Below are positions 40,901 through 43,900 of a stretch of DNA of 64,000 bases, one piece after another. Positions within the stretch are counted from its first letter, which is position 1. Every line of letters starts with the position of its first letter. The position numbers and the translations under genes are program-made. Under the pieces are notes generated by a model. It was given only the letters and a program-made list of their open reading frames with translations. It was not told the DNA's origin and made no database searches. The DNA comes from Sinotaia quadrata (Eukaryota > Mollusca > Gastropoda > Architaenioglossa > Viviparidae): positions 104,257,558 through 104,321,557 of the forward strand of contig CM054178.1 in the NCBI GenBank assembly GCA_028829895.1, written 5' to 3'.

Positions 40901-43900
40901 TCCGTTACGCCCACGCAAAGCTCAACAACCCCCATCCCTCTCTTCCCGGAAGTTCGCACTTCCGACTAACGACACGTTCACACTGAATACTTTATTAATT
41001 ATTTTACTTCAATTTAAATTGTTCACAAAAATGAAAGCTCGTTTCATGACATCCCCCCGCTCAGAATATACTTGGAATCAAGTTATTCAACAATTTCAAT
41101 TGAGGTAATCAGTTTCCTCTATATACACCTAAATTATTTCATTGCCTACAGTTACTCCCTTCTAACTGTAGCTACGATTTCTTCTTTTTCATGTGACACC
41201 ATCTGTCTATCAGTATGCTCTTCTACCTGTGCCTCCTCCCCCTCAACATACGCACGCAGCAAGTTGATGTGGCATGTTCTCTCTTTCCCCTTACCCAGGA
41301 TCCTATAGTTCTGACCCCTGAGTTTAGCAGTGACTTCATAAGGACCGCGCCACTTCACTTGCAATTTATCGCGCTTTTCGAATGACAGCAACAACACTTT
41401 GTCACCTGCCTTAAAAGAACGATTCTGCATTTTCCTATTAGAATGCGCTGTTCGCCTTATTTTCCCCTTTTGCAAATCTGTAGTTTTCTGGCTAACTTGA
41501 CCTAGCCTCTCCCGCGAATTTTGAGCAGACTGGTCGAACGATTGGTACATTTTCTCAAGATGCACCTTCTCATCTGTATCAGCAGACACACTCGCAAACA
41601 TTCCTTCGCTTGCTTGCATCTCTGTACATCCTCTACATGTATCACAGAATCTGTTGATCTCTGTGAACATTCCCGGCCAATAGAAATTTCTCCATATTCT
41701 ATCTGCAGTAACGGCCCTACTCAAATGTCCGTCTGCTAAATCGGTATGCATACGTCGCATTACGTCAGCGCGTTTGCACTTCGGTACTACCAACTGTCTT
41801 CGGCACTCTTTGTTTTGTTTCGTTTCTCTAAACAAGACTGATTTCCGGTACGAATACTGAACAAGTTTAGACTCATCTCTGTTCCTCTGGTATCTCGTAC
41901 TTTCATGCAACTTTCTTAACGTTTCATCTTTACTTTGGAGATAGCTCAGTTCGCACGACGGCATGCTTTCTATCCGGTTGATCACGGGACATAACGGTTT
42001 CTTTTCACAGTTAAAAGTGCCCTGCGCTTCTACCCTCTTTACTTGCACGTCTGCTACTGTGTTTCCAGCGGGTTTCGGATGAGGATTTACATATACACTC
42101 CCGAGTAATGCACTAAACGGCGCGTTCTTAATTACCGCGGCAGTAATTCTACCTGTCACATAGCCACAGTCAATGTCTACATGCGCTACGGGTAAATTTT
42201 GTCGCTTTCCGTTAGCAAAGACAACACAAACACGGTCGTGTGTCATATCCTCTGTCCGCACTAAGTTACTAGATACAACTGCTGGATACGTACACGCGGT
42301 GTCCAGCAAAACACGAGTGATTGTGCCATTAATTTTTGCAACCACTGTATTGCTTGAAGAGTCAGCACCTCGGCCTACTTCCGACACTGCGAAAATCTGT
42401 GTTGGCTGGCTAGGACATACTTTTGACACATGTCCTATACCTTTACAGTTATAACATATCTTGTCAGAACCAAAACGTTCCTTTGGTTTCGGCCTCGATT
42501 CATTTGTTCTTCTGTCATTCTGAACGTTATTAGCGCTTTCGCTCTGCTTAGCAATCTCGCTACTCACTGATGCTTTCTGCTCATTAACTTCTACTCTCTG
42601 TCTCTCATTTTTATTTTCCCGCACGATTGGGTGAGCTTCATCATAGGCTTCTGCCATTTTGACTATCTCATTCAGATCTCTCAACTTTCTCTCTGCTAGA
42701 AACGTAACTAACCCTGGGCGGTAACATTCCATAATGCGCTCCCGAATAATTTCATCTCTGGCGCTCTCATAAGTATGCTTTACACCTGCCCTTTCAAACC
42801 AACGGTCAAACAATGTACGCATTCTATAGAGAAATTCATGATGGCTTTCTGAATGCTTTTTATGAGCCTCCCTAAAAAGTTTGCGGTACCTTTCTGCCGT
42901 AATATGGTATCGGCGCAAAAGACTTTCTTTCAATGCCCCATAATTATCTGCGTCTGCCTCTGATAACGTGTGGAAGCATTCTAGCGATTCACCGTGAAGA
43001 AAACATGATAAATTTAATGCCCAGTATTTATCTGGGATCTCATGAGCGATGGCTAGCTTTTCGAACTGACGCAAAAATTCATCGAGTTGTTCTGCTTTGT
43101 TATTAAATGGCTGTAGCGTGATCGATACAATTCTTTTATCCCTACCGCGCTGGTCAAGGAAACTATCACGAGGACTACTTACTTCACTTTCATTTGTTTT
43201 AAGTTTTGCCTCAATCTTTAGTTTTTCTAACTGAAATGCCCTCTCTTTCTCCGCCTCTCTTTCGGCCCTTTCTTTCTCTGCCACTCTCTCTAATCGGTCA
43301 AGGTACTCTCTTTCTTGCTCTCTTACATGCTTATAAGCATCTTTCCCTTTTAACCGATACATTTCAACTGCCTCTGTGTGCCATTTCACCTTTAACTCAT
43401 CTAACGTAACGTTTTCCATATTTGCGGGTTTGGACTTCTATCTCCCTTCCCTTGAAGGTAAACAAACCACTGTTCACAAATATTTCTTTCACACCTGTGC
43501 AGTACTAGACTCTTTCACTAAATACTAGCACAATCAAATATACTATTAACTACTTCTAATAGTATATCACCATCAATATATACTATTAATTCCTTCTAAT
43601 AGCATATAACAATCAACATATACTCAGTTAATTCATTTAACTAGTATACTATAATTTCCAAGCTTGCTTCTCACACTCACAGTACTCTTACTGATGAATG
43701 CACAAGCATACAAATCATTCACAGATGCATAAATAAATATTGCTAACTATTAACATGCACATGTTATTATGCAATAATATGAGCAATATACATCAATCAA
43801 AATGCATCAACATAAACAGAGAGTTTGCTTGCTTGTCTTCCTTTACAAAATTAGCGCTACAAGTTAGATTCAAAAATCTTTTTATGTTTCACGCTAACAA

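Follow-up and report, generated by a model that had tools for sequence, protein, structure and literature searches.

A Ty3/gypsy-type long-terminal-repeat (LTR) element in the genome of Sinotaia quadrata is very probably a semi-autonomous element. It would be moved in trans by a full-length, Gmr1-like partner and refreshed from that partner through template switching. The evidence comes from the anatomy of the element, comparison with full-length and deleted relatives in the same genome, and the pattern of substitutions in its reading frame.

The element and its probable full-length partner

The complete element lies on the minus strand at 39912-45090 of the window, the 64,000-nucleotide stretch of contig CM054178.1 that was analyzed (104257558-104321557; the source genome is 984 Mb). 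Its features are summarized in Table 1. The internal region of 2899 bases contains an uninterrupted ORF of 755 codons, and the two LTRs have no differences over 1140 bp. The original prediction proposed this ORF, its order of gag, CCHC knuckle, protease, HHCC finger and integrase C-terminus, both LTRs, the primer-binding site (PBS), the purine tract and the target duplication, and all of these were found. The profile matches vary in strength. The Integrase_H2C2 finger is above cut-off (E 8.7e-14) and the capsid segment matches as SCAN-type. The CCHC knuckle falls slightly below the curated cut-off, the protease is a weak Pfam match and the integrase p58 C-terminal match is sub-threshold. The PBS is complementary to the 3' end of tRNA-Pro, and two tRNA-Pro genes in the same genome end in this way. 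The partner's integrase core and RT-RNase H were each queried against the window element, and neither gave a match.

When relatives elsewhere were sought at the protein level, the best 7995 word-sharing candidates contained one match, a Pleurodeles SCAN-box protein with 23% identity. Among solved structures there were two sequence matches, both weak, Ty3 being the better with E 0.1. At ORF residues ~44-60 the N-terminal coiled coil of Gag has short tandem units (ERAERVAEK-like) whose number varies among copies. Elsewhere in the window, an exon-like ORF at 32648-33727 matches zinc carboxypeptidase (Peptidase_M14, E 9e-5), and an ORF at 5768-6910 has 13 relatives, the only named one being a protein of the bivalve Tegillarca granosa.

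Table 1. Features of the deleted element, in window coordinates
Feature	Position	Strand	Basis
Target-site duplication AATAC, left	39907..39911	.	flank comparison
3' LTR, 1140 bp, identical to 5' LTR	39912..41051	-	LTR comparison
Polypurine tract; its 11 bases unchanged in L022 and L024 (partner copies), altered in older L025	41052..41062	-	
Gag-PR ORF with integrase remnant, intact, 755 codons	41152..43419	-	
RT-RNase H loss joint, approximate; AGT overlap; non-partner frame, stop four codons on	41161..41165	-	
Integrase C-terminal (p58_C-like) segment; partner-like, 11-13% different	41254..41346	-	
Second mosaic breakpoint, approximate: old deleted lineage to partner-like	41351..41415	-	
Spacer replacing integrase catalytic core (~590 bases in partner)	41545..41616	-	
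Integrase HHCC (H2C2) zinc finger	41611..41787	-	profile match
Retropepsin-like domain; DTA at 42295-42303 versus partner DTG	42097..42339	-	weak Pfam match
CCHC zinc knuckle (nucleocapsid)	42409..42459	-	profile match slightly below cut-off
First mosaic breakpoint, approximate: partner-like capsid to old deleted lineage	42551..42651	-	
SCAN-type capsid segment	42634..42894	-	profile match
PBS, complementary to tRNA-Pro 3' end	43931..43948	-	
5' LTR	43951..45090	-	
Target-site duplication AATAC, right	45091..45095	.	flank comparison

Three full-length copies (L022, L023 and L024), taken from their sequence to be the partner, share the LTR with the window element (about 96%), and their internal regions are about 4985 bp long. 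L023 and L024 were scanned in pieces, and have the order SCAN-CCHC-protease, then H2C2-rve-p58_C, then RVT_1 and RNase H. Integrase precedes RT, which matches the order of Gmr1-like Ty3/gypsy elements, where the integrase is located upstream of RT (PMC8220671). By its domain order and SCAN-type capsid alone, the partner would be placed as Gmr1-like. An RT-RNase H query found at least four places at ≥95% identity, three of them at 99-100%, among the best 40 of 289 candidates, and of L022-L024, the recent full-length copies, one has an uninterrupted frame. The RT piece is present in five of the 28 sequences compared (L009-L035 plus the window), i.e. L022-L025 and partly the older L034, and in none of the 23 others, six of which (L029-L033 and L035) are short stretches where a distant RT would escape.

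Compared with the partner, the window element lacks the integrase core, with the frame kept, and the RT-RNase H segment behind the integrase tail, where the partner's frame is not kept. Beyond the RT joint the ORF reads V-R-R-E and then stops in the former 3' UTR. The original prediction held that RT, RNase H and integrase core were all lost in frame; the loss is borne out, as is the frame across the core, but RT-RNase H did not leave in frame. Nor was RT-RNase H deleted from between protease and HHCC finger, as had been supposed, for in the partner the finger adjoins the protease and RT-RNase H follows the integrase C-terminus. The interval between the flanking matches is 269 bp in L024 and 266 bp in the window, and since the partner has the order gag-PR-IN-RT-RH, the contact of protease and finger is ancestral. 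The argument that two frame-preserving deletions would arise by chance about one time in nine fails, because the loss of RT-RNase H does not preserve frame.

Copies of the deleted form and probable exchange with the partner

A 49-base pattern for the integrase joint, used with up to three mismatches over the whole genome, was found 10 times at nine loci; the backward-read control gave 0. The ten matches are the window, L009-L013, L014 (two tandem units), L015 and L020. The ORF is uninterrupted in eight of these copies, L020 being interrupted and L015 truncated at its 5' end. Perfect 5-bp target duplications are present at all seven of the nine loci where both flanks were read (the window, L009-L013 and L015). 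The duplications of L010 and L015 have the same five bases by chance, at different places. Ignoring gaps, the LTR pairs have no mismatch in the window, L009, L010 and L013, one in L011, L012 and L014, and two in L015. The deleted form itself transposes, with several insertions at their own target sites. This supports the original proposal of a gag-carrying element that depends on a full-length partner, for which many copies sharing the joint at separate target sites were expected.

Two copies have unusual structures. L014 has two internal regions in tandem with shared LTRs (LTR-int-LTR-int-LTR), with 2 differences in 2995 bases. L015 is without the first 818 internal bases including the PBS, yet has a target duplication and both LTRs. 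There are two PBS alleles. The tRNA-Pro allele is found in the window, L010, L012 and L013, and the second allele in L009, L011, L014 and L020 and in all four full-length copies (L022-L025). No tRNA gene was recognized for the second allele. A pattern search for it gave 18 places at up to three mismatches and 6 in the backward control, and the assignable places are copies of these elements. It is also present at G000:C4:28591327-28591348, outside the analyzed loci, possibly in a further fragment.

The integrase core was sought in the 28 sequences by tblastn with the partner's integrase piece, and was found only in L022-L025 and L034. In eighteen sequences there are matches on either side of the core and none within partner residues 181-352, and L027 has no integrase match. 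In L016-L019 the match ends at partner residue 204-207, a few residues inside the core, and there is no match to the integrase tail. These four form a second deleted family, internally ~91% like the window where aligned and with largely different LTRs. In the older copies L021, L026, L028-L033 and L035 a common spacer replaces the core, ~95-135 bases longer than the spacer of the young copies. Three old spacers are 76-80% alike. They were considered as a remnant of the integrase core, and this was rejected on unconvincing best matches (E 0.18 by blastn and 0.04 by tblastx). In L021 and L026 the 3' LTR is separated from the last match to the integrase tail by about 590-600 bases, which are mostly common to other old copies and contain no RT match. 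No LTR pair was recognized by self-comparison in L021, L026, L027 and L028, and these copies are therefore undated. The deleted lineage is long-standing. The suggestion that the deleted form was mobilized or arose very recently is right for the window insertion, but recent age does not extend to the lineage.

In 100-base bins, internal bases 1-1300 of the window element are 95-100% identical to L022-L024, and its LTR 94-100%. Over bases 1400-2330 the identity to the same copies is about 70% where the sequences can be aligned at all. The distance to recent partners is about 1% in the capsid segment and about 30% in the middle, while the middle differs by about 6% from L016-L019 and by 13-23% from the old copies. 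As read from these comparisons the window element is a mosaic, with LTRs and bases 1-1300 that are partner-like and a middle from the older deleted lineage. The integrase tail is 87-89% identical to the partner, and the last 100 bases 93-94%. The 3' exchange is older than that at the 5' side, since the partner-like sequence there shows greater divergence from the partner (11-13% in the tail and 6-7% behind it).

In a tree of the middle (18 rows, leaving out L017, L019, L020, L027, L030-L033 and L035) a branch with 100/100 support splits four full-length from 14 deleted copies. The capsid gives a different grouping. A single clade of deleted copies is rejected in the capsid tree (12 rows; p-AU 0.017) and over bases 1-1330 (11 rows; p-AU 0.031), in tests where the clades were chosen after the distances had been seen, variable columns are few and the capsid-tree bootstrap is unsettled. 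The capsid tree pairs the deleted L010 with the full-length L022 (98/93), and they pair again over bases 1-1330 (93/96). L012 and L023 have no difference over 551 capsid columns. Over bases 1-1330 L012 joins the deleted L013 and L014 (89/86), not L023, and its link to L023 is therefore local. In the capsid L020 differs by 4.2-4.9% from the young copies, and in the middle it is 2.2% away from the window, as if it had kept an earlier version of the capsid. Deleted and full-length copies are interleaved in the capsid gene, so that exchange would have occurred more than once. Template switching between co-packaged RNAs would be a natural mechanism; for Onsen of Arabidopsis frequent recombination of such a kind is described, most likely during reverse transcription (PMC5668417).

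Selection on the reading frame and other explanations

We calculated pN/pS for eight ORFs (the window, L009-L013, the second unit of L014 and the truncated L015; the first L014 unit and L020 were omitted). The values are 0.10 for the capsid, 0.18 for the nucleocapsid (NC), 0.20 for the protease (PR), 0.48 for the linker and 0.74 from the HHCC finger to the end. Nonsynonymous changes make up 11 of 26 variable sites in NC and PR together (p 1.3e-4, with an approximate expectation under neutrality as reference), compared with 23 of 32 in the integrase remnant (p 0.20). The two differ with a Fisher p of 0.033, or 0.048 with the linker added to the remnant. NC and PR alone test the deleted lineage itself, because they lie outside the exchanged segment; the constraint on the capsid may be inherited via exchange with the partner. 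On these 26 variable sites, NC-PR appears to be under purifying selection in the young copies, and the integrase finger and tail look like nearly neutral leftovers.

For the old copies we took differences from the window common to at least three of them and looked for an excess at third positions. There is an excess in the capsid (p 0.002), where the window is partner-derived, and in NC (p 0.007). In PR it is not clear (p 0.11), and it is absent in the linker, finger and spacer. The last tail segment has an excess with p 0.019, and is again partner-derived in the window. Private differences of the old copies have no third-position excess, as expected from decay after insertion.

The active site of retropepsins is D-[ST]-G. 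The partner has DTG in all four copies, while DTA is found in 8/8 young ORFs and 4/4 of L016-L019. In the old copies the glycine codon is absent in all eight that can be read (alanine in five, threonine in three), two of the ten being unreadable. The canonical glycine is thus missing from every readable deleted copy.

These data bear on whether the element is purely a parasite that depends on the partner for Gag too, the Gag it encodes seeming conserved through repeated copying from the partner. The capsid segment shared with the partner fits this, as does the lack of a clear third-position excess in PR of the older copies. Yet NC and PR are outside the exchanged segment and evolve under constraint in the young copies, and the NC excess is found among differences shared by old copies. 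We consider it rather unlikely that the element contributes no Gag of its own.

A new selected role for the finger-plus-tail remnant, e.g. as a tether between the partner's integrase and the deleted RNA or Gag, is improbable. The frame is kept in the eight copies with uninterrupted ORFs and in the truncated L015, both histidines and both cysteines of the finger are kept in 8/8 ORFs (by eye), and the last tail segment has the excess noted above. Against this, the pN/pS of the remnant is indistinguishable from neutral, the old copies lack the excess in finger and spacer, and L016-L019 have no match to the tail.

Less probable still is the idea, an alternative in the original prediction, that the missing parts are introns spliced from full-length genomic RNA before reverse transcription. 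All of them are indeed present in the partner, and one GT is close to the left border of the RT gap. But the borders of the RT joint overlap by 3 bases, AGT, and no GT...AG fits there (the test covers the RT gap, the borders of the integrase gap being not sharply definable). Moreover the core is replaced by a spacer that is common to old copies and not convincingly similar to it, and the middle differs from the partner by 30%. LTR elements with internal deletions are common, but a chance deletion or assembly collapse in a single copy is refuted by the ten copies with the same joint at separate target sites, and can practically be dismissed.

A probable semi-autonomous element and its helper

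The most probable course of events for a semi-autonomous element with a Gmr1-like helper is as follows. The deleted element encodes its own capsid, nucleocapsid and protease-like domain, and no RT, RNase H or integrase core. Its RNA, with the LTRs and 5' half of the partner, would be co-packaged with full-length partner RNA, reverse-transcribed by the partner's enzyme and inserted as DNA by the partner's integrase. We infer this mobilization in trans from the target duplications and from what the two elements have in common, namely LTRs, purine tract and the 5' region. During co-packaging RT would switch templates, so that LTRs and capsid gene are replaced by the partner's current version and the deleted lineage remains usable as a substrate. 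Its own Gag, seemingly kept by selection, would probably join a common pool of particles. A more tentative and rather unlikely suggestion is that the long-lived deleted lineage and the partner share one recombining capsid-and-LTR pool, with NC staying the lineage's own and its conserved DTA protease-like domain perhaps altering the maturation of mixed particles in favor of the deleted element.

Non-autonomous LTR elements that carry gag appear to have been described mainly in plants. In plant TR-GAG elements, which are without pol, GAG is the sole coding domain. The window element likewise keeps GAG, but has in addition integrase ends and a protease-like domain, with H2C2 above cut-off and the protease-like match weak, and so lies outside that class in its strict sense. 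In soybean, Du and colleagues in 2010 reportedly described LTR swapping, in which a non-autonomous element acquired the LTRs of an autonomous one; here the capsid gene was exchanged as well. By structure the window element would belong to the semi-autonomous (GAG-PR) class, having an intact gag-pro ORF without RT or integrase core, several insertions with their own target sites, and LTRs and a purine tract common to recent full-length partner copies (the tract read from L022 and L024).

The closest cases in the literature are from wheat and mouse. RLG_Sabrina_SA of wheat, paired with RLG_Wilma, is a Gypsy-type element with an intact GAG-protease ORF and no RT or integrase, called semi-autonomous and seen as a source of GAG in a cooperative complex with the autonomous element; there are 5397 semi-autonomous copies in this plant (PMC9744471). 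The window element is likewise Gypsy-type with a GAG-protease ORF and no RT. Integrase ends, a Gmr1-like order in the partner and capsid exchange are not known to be described for RLG_Sabrina_SA. RLG_Quinta of wheat is a non-autonomous partner of RLG_Cereba that gives GAG, sharing parts of the LTR, the PBS and the purine tract, with recombination in gag (PMC11302176). The window element also shares LTR and purine tract with its partner, and its exchange involves gag. However, in RLG_Quinta gag has diverged in DNA and the flanks are alike, whereas in the present pair the likeness lies in capsid and LTRs and the divergence in the middle. In the mouse, a deletion in IAP 1delta1 generated a fused gag-pol ORF; the element is non-autonomous, moved in trans and is the source of most new IAP insertions, although the fusion protein is reported to act in cis (PMC6466679). 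Both are deleted, non-autonomous animal elements, but IAP 1delta1 is an endogenous retrovirus with one 1.9-kb deletion and the window element is Ty3/gypsy. Among the matches listed in the open-licence literature there was no deleted Gmr1-like element.

With such pairs in wheat and mouse, this is a new case of a known kind of pairing and not a new kind. The pair, from an animal and with a full-length member of Gmr1-like type, appears to show the gag-bearing non-autonomous way of life. Both partners are recent, their copies can be counted, and their sequences record that LTR and capsid of the partner were captured repeatedly. With this pair it can be tested how an element of this sort remains compatible with its helper over long periods.
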